Below are positions 846 to 42,551 of a DNA stretch of 45,316 nucleotides, piece after piece. The stretch's first letter is position 1. Each line of letters starts with the position of its first letter. The notes beneath the pieces were generated by a model. It ran no database searches. It was not told the origin of the DNA and saw nothing but the letters and a program-made list of their open reading frames with translations. The translations under genes were made by a program, and so were the position numbers. The stretch comes from Balnearium lithotrophicum (GTDB lineage: Bacteria; Aquificota; Aquificia; Desulfurobacteriales; Desulfurobacteriaceae): the NCBI RefSeq assembly GCF_900182585.1, contig NZ_FXTM01000017.1, positions 1 to 45,316 of the forward strand. Direction: 5' to 3'.

Positions 846-2153
846 ATGGAATTGGGAAAGAATGAAGAATTTAAAGAGACCGAAATAGGGCTTATTCCAA
901 AGGATTGGGAAGTTGTGAGGTTGGGGGATTATATAACGCAATCTAAAGAAAAGAATAAACAAAATTTGAATATTCCTGTTTATACTGTATCTAAGGTGTA
1001 TGGATTTGTGTTGTCAGAAGAATTTTTTAGCAAAAAAGTTTATAGTAAAAACTTGAGTAACTATAAAATAGTTAGAAATAATTATTTTGCTTACAATCCA
1101 TATCGTATTAATGTAGGCTCTATAGCTCTATTTATGGATAATATTGGTTTAGTAAGTCCAGCTTATCTTGTTTTTAAAGTCAAAGATGCCAAAAAGTTAA
1201 ACTCAAGATTCCTATTATATTTGTTAAGAACTACTAAATATACACAGGAAATTAAAAGATTTTCAATGACTCGAGGAAGTGTTAGAAGGAGTTTAAGTTT
1301 CAAGGACTTATCTGAATTTAAAATTCCTCTTCCGCCGATTTCGGAGCAGAAGGCAATTGCAGCTGTTTTGGATAAGGTCAGGGAAACGATAGATAAAACG
1401 GAAGAAGTTATAAATTCATTAAAAGAGTTTAAAAAATCATTAATGAAGCACCTTTTTACATACGGAGCAGTCCCTGTTGACGAAGTTGACAAAGTTAAAC
1501 TTAAAAAAACGGAAGTTGGGTTAATTCCTGAACATTGGGAAATAAAACAGTCCAAAGATGTTTTTTATAAAATCACTGATGGAACTCATGATACTCCTAA
1601 GAAATTAGACAAAGGTATTCCTTTAATTAAATCAAAACAAATAAAAAATGGAAAAATAGATTTTAGAAAAGTAGATTACTTTATAAGTCAAAATGATTAT
1701 GAACTTATAAATAAAAGGAGCAAAGTTAATAAAGATGATATTTTAATTTCTATGATAGGAACAATAGGAGAGGTTGCTTATGTGGAAGATGAACCTAAGT
1801 TCGCAATAAAGAATGTAGGATTATTTAAAACTAATTTTGGTGATAAGAGAATTTCAAAATTTCTATTTTACTATTTCCAAAATACGAATTGCCAAAATTG
1901 GATATGGAAAAATATCTCTGGAACAAGTCAAAAATATTTAACTTTAACTAAATTAAAGCAACTTCCTATTCCTCTTCCGCCGATTGATGAGCAGAAAGAA
2001 ATCGCGGAGATTCTGACCAAGTTGGACGATAGAATCGAAGCAGAGGAGAGGAAGAAGGAGGCTTTGGGGGAGCTCTTTAAAACCCTCCTCAACGAGCTTA
2101 TGACCGGAAAAAAAAGATTAAAAAAGGAATTTGTTGAGAAATTTGGGGAGTAA
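846..2153 (+). CDS. hsdS: Type I restriction-modification specificity subunit HsdS
   Basis: A 435-residue protein with the classic two-fold HsdS layout. Each half begins with a matching segment (TEIGLIPKDWEVVRLGD near residue 13, TEVGLIPEHWEIKQSKD near 222), continues with a variable target-recognition domain, and ends in a conserved helix starting PIPLPPIxEQKxIAxxL. The two recognition domains bind the two halves of a bipartite DNA site and the helices set the spacing. DNA of the recognition domains is clearly more AT-rich than neighbouring genes, which fits horizontal exchange. The gene starts 3 bases after vapC and ends 1 base before hsdR. The methyltransferase subunit HsdM is not in the window and is expected upstream of the insertion sequence. 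Confidence 0.93.
   Translation: MELGKNEEFKETEIGLIPKDWEVVRLGDYITQSKEKNKQNLNIPVYTVSKVYGFVLSEEFFSKKVYSKNLSNYKIVRNNYFAYNPYRINVGSIALFMDNIGLVSPAYLVFKVKDAKKLNSRFLLYLLRTTKYTQEIKRFSMTRGSVRRSLSFKDLSEFKIPLPPISEQKAIAAVLDKVRETIDKTEEVINSLKEFKKSLMKHLFTYGAVPVDEVDKVKLKKTEVGLIPEHWEIKQSKDVFYKITDGTHDTPKKLDKGIPLIKSKQIKNGKIDFRKVDYFISQNDYELINKRSKVNKDDILISMIGTIGEVAYVEDEPKFAIKNVGLFKTNFGDKRISKFLFYYFQNTNCQNWIWKNISGTSQKYLTLTKLKQLPIPLPPIDEQKEIAEILTKLDDRIEAEERKKEALGELFKTLLNELMTGKKRLKKEFVEKFGE
1323..1985 (+). repeat. Direct repeat pair flanking the second recognition domain of hsdS
   Basis: The 18-mer ATTCCTCTTCCGCCGATT occurs at 1323-1340 and identically at 1968-1985, encoding the IPLPPI start of each conserved helix. 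Identical DNA at these two points is the classic substrate for recombination that swaps or deletes a recognition domain. Only these two copies were seen. Confidence 0.8.
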
Positions 2154-2154
2154 A

Positions 2155-5052
2155 ATGGAGTTTGGAAGTGAGAGAGGAGCGGTTCAGAACAGAATAATCA
2201 AGTACTGCTCAGATATTGGCTGGGAGTATTTAAGTCCAGAGGAGGCTCTTACCTACAGGAACGGAGAGGGAAACATTCTCCTAAGGGAGATATTTATAAG
2301 ACAGATTCTCAATCTAAATCCAAAGTTGGAATATGAAAACGCTGAGGAAGTTGTTAGAAAGTTAGAGAGAATTCCCTCGAACGTAGAGGGAAACCTTACG
2401 GCATGGGAGTACCTGAAGGGATTAAAACAGGTGTTCGTTCAGGACGAAAACAGGGAGATAAACGTAAGGCTCTTAGATACGGAAAACTTCAGGAACAATG
2501 TCTTTCACGTAACGGATGAGCTTAAATTTGTAAGTGGTAACAAAACAAACAGGTACGATTTAGTTTTCTACGTAAACGGCTTCCCTATTCTACTGATAGA
2601 GACAAAAGCGGCTTACAAAATAAATGGACTCTCCGAAGCCTTTGAACAGATTAAGAGATACCACTGGGAAACGCCGGAAGCCCTCTCGCTTTTACAGCTC
2701 TTTTCGATAACTCACTTAATAGACTTTTACTACTCGGCAACCTGGAATCTGTCTGCAAAGGATTTAAACAGGTGGAAGCACAAAGAAGAATTTGATTTTG
2801 AGCACCTTATAAAGACGTTCTTTGACAGAAAAAACATTCTGAAAATTGTTACAGACTACATTCTCTTTGTTAAAAAGGACGATAGGCTCAGCAAGGTTGT
2901 TTTAAAGCCTCACCAGATTAGGGCAGTTGGTAAGGTTGTTGATAGGGCAAGGGATAGGAGGAAAAGGAGGGGACTTGTATGGCACACTCAGGGAAGCGGT
3001 AAAACCTACACAATGATAACTGCCGCAAAGCTCATACTTGAAAGCCCTGAATTTGAAAACCCTACGGTTATAATGCTTGTTGATAGAAACGAACTTGAAC
3101 AGCAGCTTTTCAACAACCTCTCCTCCGTTGGGCTTGAAAACGTAAGGGTTGCAATGTCTAAAAGGGACTTGAAAAAACTCCTCATTGATGATTACAGGGG
3201 GCTCATAGTTTCAACAATTCACAAGTTCCACCTGATGCCAAAGGATGTGAACAGGAGGAGAAACATTTTCGTTTTTATAGACGAGGCTCACAGAACAACG
3301 GAGGGGGATTTAGGAACCTACTTAATGGCAGCCCTTCCTAATGCAACGATTATAGGGTTTACAGGAACGCCGAGGGATAAGACTAAACACGGAAAGGGAA
3401 CCTTTGTTACGTTCGGTATAGATGACCCTCCTTACGGATACTTGGACAAGTACAGCATTTTGGAGTCAATAGAGGATGGAACAACCTTAAAAATAAACTA
3501 CACGCTTGCCGAAAATTCACTCCTTCCGTCAAAAGAGGTTCTTGAAAGGGAATTTTTAAACCTAAAGGAAATTGAAGGGGTCAGCGATATAGAGACGCTG
3601 AACAGAGCTCTCTCTAAGGCAACAACTTTAAAGAACCTCCTCAAAAACAGGGAGAGGATAGACAGAATTGCTCAGTTTATCTCAAAGCACTTTAGGGAAA
3701 ACGTTGAACCTATGGGATACAAGGCTTTTATTGTTGCAGTTGATAGGGAAGCCTGCGCAATCTACAAGGAAGCCCTCGATAGATACCTTTCTCCCGAATA
3801 CTCGGAGGTTGTTATAAGTAAAAACCACAACGACCCTCCAGAGCTAAAGAGGTACCACCACACCGAGGAGGAGGAAAGGTTAATAAGGCGGAGATTCAAG
3901 GAGGAGGAAACTCCGAAAATACTGATAGTTACCGAAAAGTTACTGACGGGATTTGATGCTCCTATTCTCTACGCCATGTACTTGGATAAACCTATGAGGG
4001 ACCACGTTCTGCTTCAGGCAATAGCAAGGGTAAACAGGCCTTACGAGGATGAAAATGGTAGAAAGAAACCTGCCGGATTGATTGTTGACTTTGTTGGGAT
4101 ACTTGACAACCTTGAGAGAGCTCTCTCATTTGACAGCAGCGATATCGAAGGGGTTCTGACCGATTTAGAGGTTTTAAAGGGACACCTGAAGGACTTAATG
4201 GAGGAGGGAAGGGTCGAGTACCTTTCCATTTTAAAGGGAAAGAGGGGAGATAAGGCCGTTGAGGAGGTTTTAAATGTCTTCAGAGACCAGGAAAAGAGAC
4301 ATAAGTTTTATCAATTCTTCAACGAATTAAAGGCAATCTACGAAATCTTAACGCCAGACCCGTTTTTAAGGCCTTACATAGAGGACTTTGCGCTCTACAC
4401 GAGAATCTACAGCATTCTGAAGCAGGCCTACGAGAGTGTTGACGTTGGAAAAAAGATACTTGAAAGAGAGTTGAGTGAAAAAATAAAGGAGCTGATAAAG
4501 GGAGCTCCTGTTAATGCCACAATAAAGGAAGAGTTGGAGATTGTAGAAATAGACGAGAATACGCTGAAAAAGCTCCTTTCGAGCAAAGCAACCGATACGG
4601 AAAAGGTCTTTAACCTCTTAAAGAGTGCCGAACTGACCATCAACAGGAATTTAGAAAAAGAACCCTACCTAATACCCCTTGCAGAGAGGCTTGAGGAGCT
4701 TACAAGGGAGTACCACAACAGACAGAAAAATACAAAGGAGATGTTAAACGAGCTGAAGGAATTATCAGAGGAGATAGTAAGGGTAAGAAAGGAGATGAGA
4801 GCTCTGGGATTGAGCGTTGAAACATTCACTGTTTATTGGATTTTGAAGAAAATGGGAGTTGAGAGAGCTCTCGACTTTAAGGATAAAATTGAGGAAATTT
4901 TTAACGAGCATAAGCTCTGGAAGGTAAATAAAAGCGAAGGTAGAAAGTTGAAAATTGAGCTTACAAAGCTCTTTTTAAATCTCTTGGGAAGTGAGAGGAT
5001 AAGGGAAGTTACAGAAACGGTTAACAAAATTCTTGAGATACTAAGGAAGTGA
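2155..5052 (+). CDS. hsdR: Type I restriction endonuclease/translocase subunit HsdR
   Basis: A 965-residue motor-nuclease. The N-terminal PD-(D/E)xK nuclease shows D135 (RYDLVFYVNG) and E149-T-K151 (LLIETKA). The superfamily 2 motor follows, with Walker A QGSGKT (280-284), DEAH box IDEAHR (376-379), motif III GFTGTPRDKTKHG, and late motifs TGFDAPILYAMYLDKPM and QAIARVNRP. It translocates DNA towards the HsdM/HsdS complex and cuts at a distance. The ATG at 2155 is chosen over an upstream in-frame start at 2131 because TTGGGGAG lies just ahead of it and the upstream one is deep inside hsdS. Length is near the usual 950-1050. It looks intact. Confidence 0.95.
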   Translation: MEFGSERGAVQNRIIKYCSDIGWEYLSPEEALTYRNGEGNILLREIFIRQILNLNPKLEYENAEEVVRKLERIPSNVEGNLTAWEYLKGLKQVFVQDENREINVRLLDTENFRNNVFHVTDELKFVSGNKTNRYDLVFYVNGFPILLIETKAAYKINGLSEAFEQIKRYHWETPEALSLLQLFSITHLIDFYYSATWNLSAKDLNRWKHKEEFDFEHLIKTFFDRKNILKIVTDYILFVKKDDRLSKVVLKPHQIRAVGKVVDRARDRRKRRGLVWHTQGSGKTYTMITAAKLILESPEFENPTVIMLVDRNELEQQLFNNLSSVGLENVRVAMSKRDLKKLLIDDYRGLIVSTIHKFHLMPKDVNRRRNIFVFIDEAHRTTEGDLGTYLMAALPNATIIGFTGTPRDKTKHGKGTFVTFGIDDPPYGYLDKYSILESIEDGTTLKINYTLAENSLLPSKEVLEREFLNLKEIEGVSDIETLNRALSKATTLKNLLKNRERIDRIAQFISKHFRENVEPMGYKAFIVAVDREACAIYKEALDRYLSPEYSEVVISKNHNDPPELKRYHHTEEEERLIRRRFKEEETPKILIVTEKLLTGFDAPILYAMYLDKPMRDHVLLQAIARVNRPYEDENGRKKPAGLIVDFVGILDNLERALSFDSSDIEGVLTDLEVLKGHLKDLMEEGRVEYLSILKGKRGDKAVEEVLNVFRDQEKRHKFYQFFNELKAIYEILTPDPFLRPYIEDFALYTRIYSILKQAYESVDVGKKILERELSEKIKELIKGAPVNATIKEELEIVEIDENTLKKLLSSKATDTEKVFNLLKSAELTINRNLEKEPYLIPLAERLEELTREYHNRQKNTKEMLNELKELSEEIVRVRKEMRALGLSVETFTVYWILKKMGVERALDFKDKIEEIFNEHKLWKVNKSEGRKLKIELTKLFLNLLGSERIREVTETVNKILEILRK

Positions 5053-38489: not shown

Positions 38490-39863
38490 ATGAAAACGTA
38501 CGTTTTGCAAATTATAGCTACTAAATCAAAGGATGAAGCTGTAAGGGTTTTTGAGTCGTTAAAGAAGAAGAACTTACCTGTACGTATAGATAAGGTAAAT
38601 GACTGGTACAAAGTAAGAATTGGAAACTTCAAAAGTTATGAGGAAGCAAAGAAATTTGTTCTAAAACACAATCTTGAAGGAAAGGGATATATAAGCTTAA
38701 TTAATTACGAACCTCGAAGAACAGTTTTAGCTTCGAACCTGGAAAAGAAGAACCTAGAAAAGAAGAAAAAGCTCATTCAGACAATAGATAATATTACGTC
38801 TGAAAGTTTTGATAAAGTTAGTAATAGTAAAGAAACCTCTTTAAAAAAAGAAAACAGTTATCAAAGTACAAATTACACTACTCTGATTAAAAAGGTTGAT
38901 TATCTCGGTAATTTAAAAGCAATTAATAGAGAAAGTCAAAATAAAGAGGAGAAAAGTAACGGTACTCTTCACATTCATAAAATAACAAATCTGAATACCA
39001 AAAAGGAGGGGAGGATGAATTTTGAAGTTATTGCTGTTTTATTAGTCTTTTTAATTGTCTTTCTAATAATTATTAGATATCTAATTAAAAAACTCAGGGA
39101 AAAAACTCACATTGAGGATGAAACGGTAAGTCATCAAATGGAAGATGAAAGTATTGAGAATTCTGAAGAAAATGAAAAATATGATGAAATAGAATTAAAA
39201 AACTTGGAAACAGAAGATAGCAGGGAAATTCAAGAAACACTTCAAATTAAGAACCCGGTAGAGGAAGAGAAGTTTCAGGAAACAAAATTTACTCACGAAA
39301 AAGGAGGAATCTTAGTTTCCTACGGGAAATTAGTTATAGGGGAATCCACTTCTATAACAGGAGATGTAGTATCAAAGGATTCTGTTATTGTAGAGAACAA
39401 TTCCAGAATAACAGGAAGTATAACCGCAGAAAAGTACGTAAAACTTGAAAAGAATGTTAAAACAGGAAAAATATTGGCTCCTATTGTTCATACCATAAGG
39501 GACGAGGAGCTCCCTAAAATTCCAGAAACTGAAGTTCCCGTATCTGGTGGTTTGAAGAGTAATGGAGACTTGGAACTTTCCGATGGACTGCTGATTCAAG
39601 GAAGTGTGGAGGTTGGTGGTAATCTTAAAATAGGAAAAAATAGCAAAATATTGGGTAACGTTTCTGCAAAGAATGTTGTGGTAGATGAGGGGACATTTAT
39701 CTACGGGAAAATTTCCTCTCTACAGGACGTAGAAATTAGGAATAGAGTTATTGTTGGAAGTGGACCTGGTAAGGGAGGCATTAAGGCTGGAGGAAGGGTA
39801 AAATTGGGAAGTAGCGTAGTTATTTTAGGAAACATTGATGCTAAAGAAATTGTGGCTGAATAG
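38490..39863 (+). CDS. SPOR-TM-bactofilin fusion protein
   Basis: A 457-residue protein. Residues 1-75 look like a SPOR domain (TYVLQIIATKSKDEAVRVFESL, DWYKVRIGNFKSYEEAKKFV), which binds denuded septal peptidoglycan. A polar Asn/Lys-rich linker follows; one membrane helix is at about 180-198 (VIAVLLVFLIVFLIIIRYLI); then an acidic linker and, from about 270, bactofilin-type beta-helix repeats (LVIGESTSITGDVVSKDSVI, LKIGKNSKILGNVSAKNVVV, VKLGSSVVILGNIDAKEIV). No N-terminal signal peptide. The DNA is more AT-rich than its neighbours. An internal ribosome site at 39004 may yield a second protein. Fusion of SPOR with bactofilin is not an arrangement I know. Confidence 0.78.
   Translation: MKTYVLQIIATKSKDEAVRVFESLKKKNLPVRIDKVNDWYKVRIGNFKSYEEAKKFVLKHNLEGKGYISLINYEPRRTVLASNLEKKNLEKKKKLIQTIDNITSESFDKVSNSKETSLKKENSYQSTNYTTLIKKVDYLGNLKAINRESQNKEEKSNGTLHIHKITNLNTKKEGRMNFEVIAVLLVFLIVFLIIIRYLIKKLREKTHIEDETVSHQMEDESIENSEENEKYDEIELKNLETEDSREIQETLQIKNPVEEEKFQETKFTHEKGGILVSYGKLVIGESTSITGDVVSKDSVIVENNSRITGSITAEKYVKLEKNVKTGKILAPIVHTIRDEELPKIPETEVPVSGGLKSNGDLELSDGLLIQGSVEVGGNLKIGKNSKILGNVSAKNVVVDEGTFIYGKISSLQDVEIRNRVIVGSGPGKGGIKAGGRVKLGSSVVILGNIDAKEIVAE
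39004..39017 (+). promoter_or_regulatory. Strong internal ribosome site and ATG inside the SPOR-bactofilin gene
   Basis: AGGAGG at 39004-39009 (within AGGAGGGGAGG) stands five bases before an in-frame ATG at 39015. That start would give a 282-residue protein beginning MNFEVIAVLLVFLIV: membrane anchor plus bactofilin part, without SPOR. It is a far better ribosome site than the one at 38490, which has only AGGTT. Confidence 0.65.
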
Positions 39864-41784: not shown

Positions 41785-42219
41785 ATGAAAAGCTTAAAGG
41801 TTGTCTTTAAAAACGGTGTGTTCGTTCCGTTAGAGCCCGCACCAATTCCTGAGGGTACCGAGGGTATTGTTGTCTATTTGAAAAAAGAGGAGAAAGCAGA
41901 GAAACCAAGCTGGTGGGATAAGCTTTCGGTAGACGAGGAGAAGAGGAGAGCCCTCTTAAGGTTTTCAGTGAATATAAGGAAAAGGATAAGCTACATTGAT
42001 GTAAAGGTTGTTGAAGAGGACGAGGGATTTGAGGTCTTTCTGCTTGTTGATGATGAAACCTCCTCACTAAAACCTGCAATGGAGGAGGCCCTTAAGGTTT
42101 ACGAGGAAATGAACGTTTACATCCCCCTTCAGGTTATATCAAAGAGGAGACTTAACAGGTGGAGGGAGATGGGGAGCTCCATATACAAACGCATTGAGGA
42201 AGGAGTTTCAATAGGATGA
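41785..42219 (+). CDS. DUF104 (AF2212-like) domain fused to a nucleotidyltransferase-like tail
   Basis: A 144-residue protein. Residues 1-35 (LKVVFKNGVFVPLEPAPIPEGTEGIVVYL) match DUF104/AF2212-like antitoxins. The rest (about 65-144), with GFEVFLLVDDETSSLKPAMEEALKVYEEM, VYIPLQVISKRRLNRWREMGSSIYKRIEEGVSIG, resembles the second half of small MNT nucleotidyltransferases, whose tails read like this, but the catalytic GSxxxGxxxxxSDxD loop is missing. So it is a fusion or a decayed nucleotidyltransferase joined to an antitoxin-like strand. No toxin gene adjoins it; the stop overlaps the spoVG start (ATGA). Confidence 0.65.
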   Translation: MKSLKVVFKNGVFVPLEPAPIPEGTEGIVVYLKKEEKAEKPSWWDKLSVDEEKRRALLRFSVNIRKRISYIDVKVVEEDEGFEVFLLVDDETSSLKPAMEEALKVYEEMNVYIPLQVISKRRLNRWREMGSSIYKRIEEGVSIG

Positions 42220-42551
42220 CACGTAAGGAGATTGAGAGACTCCCTGTTATGAATTTAGAGGTTACGGATGTAAAAATTTATCCCTTTGATACCTCTGGTA
42301 TAGGTGGAAATGTGAAAGCAGTTGCAACAGTGAAGATTAACAACATTTTGGAAATCAGGGATATTAAGGTTATATATTCAAACAAGGGCTACTTTATACA
42401 GATGCCCTCTAAAAGGAGCAGGACGGGGGAGTTTGTCCCGATAGTTAATCCCTTGAGTAAGGAGCTCTACCTCCACATAAGGAGGAAGGTTCTCGATGAG
42501 TACAAACGGATTATGGAGAAGTACAATGAAAAGGTTAGTTTTGGCACTTAG
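42216..42551 (+). CDS. spoVG: SpoVG-family nucleic-acid-binding regulator
   Basis: A 111-residue SpoVG. Recognisable as NLEVTDVKIYPF, VKAVATVKINNILEIRDIKVIYSNKGYFIQMPSKRSRTGEFVPIVNPLS, with the conserved MPSK segment. SpoVG binds RNA and DNA and acts as a global regulator in Firmicutes and Borrelia; it also occurs in Aquificota and Deltaproteobacteria, where its role is unclear. Translationally coupled to the DUF104-type gene. The end overlaps the lipoprotein gene by 26 bases. Confidence 0.88.
   Translation: MTRKEIERLPVMNLEVTDVKIYPFDTSGIGGNVKAVATVKINNILEIRDIKVIYSNKGYFIQMPSKRSRTGEFVPIVNPLSKELYLHIRRKVLDEYKRIMEKYNEKVSFGT

Follow-up and report, generated by a model that had tools for sequence, protein, structure and literature searches.

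In Helicobacter pylori, the Csd5-CcmA pair joins a periplasmic peptidoglycan binder, through one helix, to a cytoplasmic bactofilin, and CcmA depends on Csd5 to reach the envelope (PMC9507126). FimV/HubP proteins have a comparable order, with a peptidoglycan-binding domain, a transmembrane (TM) helix and a cytoplasmic effector, and here the wall binder drives placement (PMC12918733). Bactofilins with an N-terminal TM helix form a small known class of about 3.2% (PMC12448750). Among them, CcmA of Proteus mirabilis, with N-terminal TM segments, is a membrane-inserted bactofilin for which two lengths were reported, the short form lacking the membrane part and being called a processing product (PMC12448750). 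Lastly, in the SPOR proteins FtsN, DedD, DamX and RlpA, the SPOR domain normally follows an exporting N-terminal anchor or signal peptide.

Here, we describe a gene of the heat-loving bacterium Balnearium lithotrophicum that encodes a SPOR domain, a linker, a TM helix, a second linker and a bactofilin, in this order. It spans positions 38490-39863 of the plus strand in the window (the whole analysed stretch of 45,316 nt), as an ORF of 457 aa with an ATG start and the stop included. As in Csd5-CcmA, a wall binder, one helix and a bactofilin are combined; unlike that pair, which is made of two proteins with an SH3 wall binder, the fusion is one chain and uses SPOR. Whereas FimV/HubP proteins have LysM, TPR and a signal peptide, the fusion has SPOR and bactofilin and no signal peptide, and Pfam found in it neither a LysM nor a C-terminal TPR/FimV domain: we read it as working like FimV/HubP without being a member of that group. 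It shares with the known SPOR proteins the domain, its fold and the glycan-contacting Gln, but places them at the extreme N-terminus, behind neither anchor nor signal peptide. Two product lengths are proposed here, as were reported for P. mirabilis CcmA, which has no SPOR; in contrast to that case, both predicted forms keep the helix and differ by the SPOR. The preliminary description of this DNA knew of no described protein with this layout, and our literature search likewise turned up none: of 5.39 million papers only 2 mention bactofilin together with the SPOR domain, in both cases outside title and abstract.

Domains of the fusion protein

At the N-terminus, Pfam placed a SPOR domain (PF05036) on residues 2-57 (E 1.3e-10, 41.9 bits against a cut-off of 21); the only relative found, L042, scored 42.2 bits. 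Including a C-terminal extension, the domain covers residues 1-81 (38490-38732, plus strand), as delimited by Pfam, the model, Foldseek and an alignment of 12 SPORs. In the full-length model (pLDDT about 70-82 in this part), the elements E2-11, H14-25, E31-36, E39-47, H50-59 and E67-72 follow the RNP-like beta-alpha-beta-beta-alpha-beta order of the SPOR fold. Coherently, Foldseek against the PDB matched CwlC (TMt 0.75), RlpA (0.65), DedD and FtsN with probabilities of 0.97-1.00 (entries 1x60, 6i09, 6ztg and 1uta). In RlpA, Q270 contacts denuded glycan next to a basic patch, R302/R309/R311 (PMC6895207). This glutamine corresponds to Q7 of the fusion protein, and Q7, K41 and R43 (Q5, K39 and R41 in alignment numbering) are invariant in the 12 aligned SPORs; the register of the basic positions relative to RlpA (K41, R43 and, as the third, K35) was set by eye, without a computed RlpA alignment. 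The preliminary description had read this end as SPOR and suggested a profile search and a structure prediction as checks: both returned SPOR, and profile score, fold and glycan-contacting glutamine all agree.

Two further SPOR-like matches, both below the Pfam cut-off, were seen elsewhere. One (L039, G000:C3:~109250-110950) combines a signal peptide and a weak SPOR (15 bits) with an OEP outer membrane efflux protein (80 bits). The other (L034, G005:C5) has a C-terminal SPOR of 17 bits after a TM helix, and its N-terminal cytoplasmic domain, to which Pfam gave no name, looks PilZ-like by eye.

The SPOR is followed by linker 1 (residues 82-175, 38733-39014, plus strand), which is fast-evolving and probably disordered (24% identity to the relative, pLDDT < 50 over residues 72-176). 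By hydropathy and in the model, the protein has one hydrophobic segment, followed by the basic flank RYLIKKLREK (residues 196-205, 39075-39104). The TM helix takes about residues 180-199 (39027-39086), within a model helix of residues 178-212. Linker 2 (residues 206-272, 39105-39305), acidic in B. lithotrophicum, is also 24% identical to its counterpart, with pLDDT < 50 over residues 205-273.

The C-terminus scored as bactofilin (PF04519) with E 3.4e-10 and 40.5 bits in B. lithotrophicum and with 48.9 bits in the relative, against a cut-off of 27.9. The profile matched in two stretches, the best at residues 349-419. Accordingly, we distinguished block 1 (residues 274-333, 39309-39488, plus strand; second Pfam stretch, genome match 39318-39455, and model strands) and block 2 (residues 349-457, 39534-39860; best Pfam stretch, model, and 66% identity to the relative), separated by a break of 15-20 residues around residues 334-350. 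A compact single domain of ~100 aa, common among bactofilins and not required by the profile, is absent: the two blocks span ~180 residues. Modelled alone, residues 270-457 folded with a pLDDT of 92.6 into a beta-helix that makes about nine coils, every ~18 residues contributing three strands.

A left-handed hexapeptide enzyme of the LpxD type was considered for this domain and rejected, the LpxD/hexapeptide models scoring far below their own Pfam cut-offs. The fold search also spoke against it, as its best matches were right-handed helices and bactofilin: the PDB match of best probability was the Thermus thermophilus bactofilin 6ria (0.69, TMt 0.54, E 0.43) and left-handed LpxD reached only 0.02, with nothing found at E <= 0.001. 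In hhalign, a weak pairwise test, bactofilin and LpxD scored similarly. The bactofilin assignment of the preliminary description stands on the Pfam scores of both genomes, but in a changed form. Instead of the canonical ~100-aa domain, the protein has an elongated and divergent bactofilin interrupted by a break; the structure prediction gave a confident beta-helix with 6ria as the most probable match, but no match at E <= 0.001. Elsewhere, the same genome encodes an ordinary bactofilin of 123 aa (L001, 88 bits).

With both Pfam scores above their cut-offs and one helix in between, SPOR, helix and bactofilin do lie in one chain, as first described, and we consider this three-part architecture of the 457-aa protein practically certain.

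Conservation and the cysE-linked SPOR proteins

A survey of the fusion in Aquificota, suggested in the preliminary description, was run with the bactofilin part as query on 136 genomes of the phylum and returned one full-length relative (50% identity, genome G017). The whole-protein query of the 120 nearest genomes gave the same single relative, and a pattern search through 84,980 species, which reaches close relatives only and leaves room for fusions in other phyla, again found the same gene (L042:207-1496), in an uncultured Desulfurobacterium MAG of a different genus. A first contig scan with a single protein query and a scan of viral sequences found no relatives.

Between the two fusion genes, identity is 68% in the SPOR, 66% in the bactofilin and 24% in both linkers, which are disordered in the full-length model. 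In this genome pair, RecG reaches 65% identity over its N-terminal third, so SPOR and bactofilin evolve like a housekeeping gene; the sequences suggest purifying selection on both end domains while the linkers drift. Even the charge of linker 2 differs, with 7 basic and 21 acidic residues in B. lithotrophicum vs 13 and 11 in the relative.

The neighbourhood was discarded as a functional clue. The start of recG lies 105 nt upstream of the fusion ATG on the opposite strand, and the flanking recG and response regulator lie apart in the nine relatives searched; the relative's fusion gene sits by mnmA/atp genes. The window also holds a SpoVG homologue (42216-42551, 82.5 bits), in a Gram-negative, non-sporulating lineage, and, where the contig begins, the specificity and R subunits of a Type I restriction system (846-5052).

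The family carries a second SPOR layout, directly after cysE: a signal peptide and a SPOR, then a linker, a TM helix and, on the cytoplasmic side, a TPR-like part, the TPR assignment being weak, with scores below the Pfam cut-offs. It was found in 18 of the 20 family genomes for which cysE was available (L085-L099, L080, L082 and L083), always with an N-terminal hydrophobic segment. These genes are the nearest relatives of the FimV/HubP-like layout, SPOR replacing LysM, and one literature search turned up no account of such a layout.

The two exceptions among the 20 are exactly the two fusion genomes (chance 1/190, p = 0.005), a statistic that rests on two events because only two fusion genomes exist. 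In B. lithotrophicum, the post-cysE protein (L075/L084, G000:C2:12774-13938, minus strand) keeps signal peptide, helix and TPR in 174 aa but no longer has a SPOR. G017 lacks the gene altogether: its cysE stop lies ~10 nt from that of the convergent ilvC. The two genomes come from separate genera, in which the remaining members have retained the gene intact. A direct transfer of the SPOR from the genus's own SPOR-TM-TPR gene was rejected: in the SPOR tree, whose deeper support is weak, the fusion SPORs group together, outside type I. As the best reading of these gene comparisons, the fusion would now fill the SPOR role that the FimV-like protein had. The apparent exchange of a TPR for a bactofilin cytoplasmic module suggests that the SPOR-TM part is a portable adaptor. 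This linked loss of a SPOR, like the internal start described below, goes beyond the observations of the preliminary description.

Topology, export and the internal start

No signal peptide or N-terminal anchor was found in either fusion genome, the SPOR starting at residue 2. Only four in-frame codons separate the fusion ATG from an upstream stop; in both genomes the ORF start and upstream stop leave no coding room, which bears out the earlier statement that a signal peptide is lacking and excludes a hidden upstream one or a mis-called start.

The basic run after the helix had been taken to favour a cytoplasmic bactofilin, and the charge counts agree in both genomes: in stretches of 15 residues on either side of the helix, K+R number 3 before and 5 after it in B. 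lithotrophicum, and 2 and 7 in the relative. By the positive-inside signal, these flanks favour a cytoplasmic C-terminus for both the long form and a predicted short one. The opposite orientation, with a cytoplasmic SPOR and a periplasmic bactofilin-like beta-helix, has in its favour that an N-in helix requires no signal peptide and that the N-side flank, KKEGR, is basic too. We hold it to be very improbable, however, given that the C-side flank is the more basic in both genomes, that the relative's N-side is net negative, and that this orientation makes poor sense of conserved glycan-binding SPOR residues or of a polymerising bactofilin.

The SPOR had also been placed outside, which is plausible: the replacement of a SPOR-TM-TPR protein with a signal peptide supports it, but the ~175-residue N-terminus is charged (38 basic and 22 acidic residues in B. 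lithotrophicum) and has no signal peptide. The crossing of the membrane by ~175 charged residues, maybe with a prefolded domain, from an N-out helix would be unusual. SPOR export is thus the weak point, since both fusions lack a signal peptide. Either the N-tail of the long form would cross by some uncommon route, or the SPOR stays inside with another role; on balance, we lean towards a periplasmic SPOR in the long form.

Just before the helix, the computed ribosome sites point to a probable second start. An internal Shine-Dalgarno (SD) sequence, AAGGAGGGGAGG (39003-39014, plus strand), precedes the in-frame ATG of Met176, and the relative has AAGGAGGAAGGG and an ATG in the same register. The predicted duplex with the anti-SD has -12.1 kcal/mol in B. 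lithotrophicum and -11.6 in the relative, and the main starts of the two genes have -4.6 and -8.3 kcal/mol. In 445 kb of the genome, internal in-frame ATGs as strong number 5 of 1268 (0.4%, Met176 included), and 12-19% of gene starts reach this strength. SD strength depends partly on coding: this level was reached at 5-8% of positions in K/E/R/G-rich control stretches, and in 31% of synonymous recodings of the peptide. An internal promoter was rejected, promoter-like matches being no more frequent than in shuffled sequences.

If the internal SD were a by-product of the K/E-rich linker, only the full-length tether would matter and the gene would have essentially one product. In its favour, purine-rich codons readily create SDs, and the bases around the relative's internal start are not unusually unstructured. 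Against it, SD register and ATG are the same in two genes with linkers 24% identical, and the site is missing in 22 controls: an SD-ATG at the helix is present in 2/2 fusions vs 0/22 SPOR-TM-TPR genes. We judge a single product quite unlikely.

It seems somewhat more probable than not, judging from the conserved in-frame ATG, that the gene makes a second, short membrane-bactofilin without SPOR. This predicted product (39015-39863, plus strand) would have 282 aa from Met176, with a tail of four residues before the helix, hence an ordinary N-out arrangement. Its likely history is the fusion of a SPOR module to an N-terminal-TM bactofilin gene whose own start was kept. In another family of the phylum, L044 (G088:C79) is a bactofilin that has a TM helix at its N-terminus but no SPOR, and the ancestor before the fusion may plausibly have looked like it.

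The short product could even be the main one, the SPOR being a cytoplasmic extension, regulatory or with a new ligand, that never reaches the wall. Since one helix cannot keep both termini cytoplasmic, the long form would then be non-spanning or inverted. Several findings speak for a main short product, namely the lack of a signal peptide in both genomes, an internal start that far exceeds the main one in strength, the known class (~3%) of N-terminal TM bactofilins (PMC12448750) and the Aquificota example L044, of the same layout without SPOR. Yet the SPOR is as well conserved as the bactofilin, glycan-contacting residues included, and the replacement of exported SPOR proteins would be left unexplained; we find this reading rather unlikely.

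A possible one-chain tether between wall and bactofilin

For the tether as a whole, we see an even chance that one chain links peptidoglycan to bactofilin, takes the place of the FimV-like protein in its SPOR role and comes as long and short subunits that co-polymerise. In this model, the SPOR in the periplasm would bind glycan strands that lack peptide stems, the helix would cross the inner membrane and the elongated bactofilin would polymerise on the cytoplasmic face. The gene would have arisen when a SPOR module was joined to the front of a gene for an N-out membrane-bactofilin; with the old ribosome site and start codon kept, it would therefore make two subunits. The wall-bound long form and the membrane-bound short form would then share one polymer. 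More tentatively, and at rather less than an even chance, the conserved internal start would provide wall-anchored and wall-free subunits, the ratio of the two starts setting how tightly the polymer is held to the wall, and the long form would deliver its SPOR to the periplasm without a signal peptide. By analogy with Csd5-CcmA and FimV/HubP, the periplasmic wall binder would set the place and the cytoplasmic bactofilin polymer would act there, possibly in placing wall growth, division or polar functions.

The coupling of filaments to the wall is known mostly from multi-protein systems, such as Csd5-CcmA, or from organisers that do not polymerise, such as FimV/HubP. A single chain doing both would make this coupling directly testable through the SPOR, the linker or one start codon, and the export of a SPOR without a signal peptide, if true, would be a surprise in itself.
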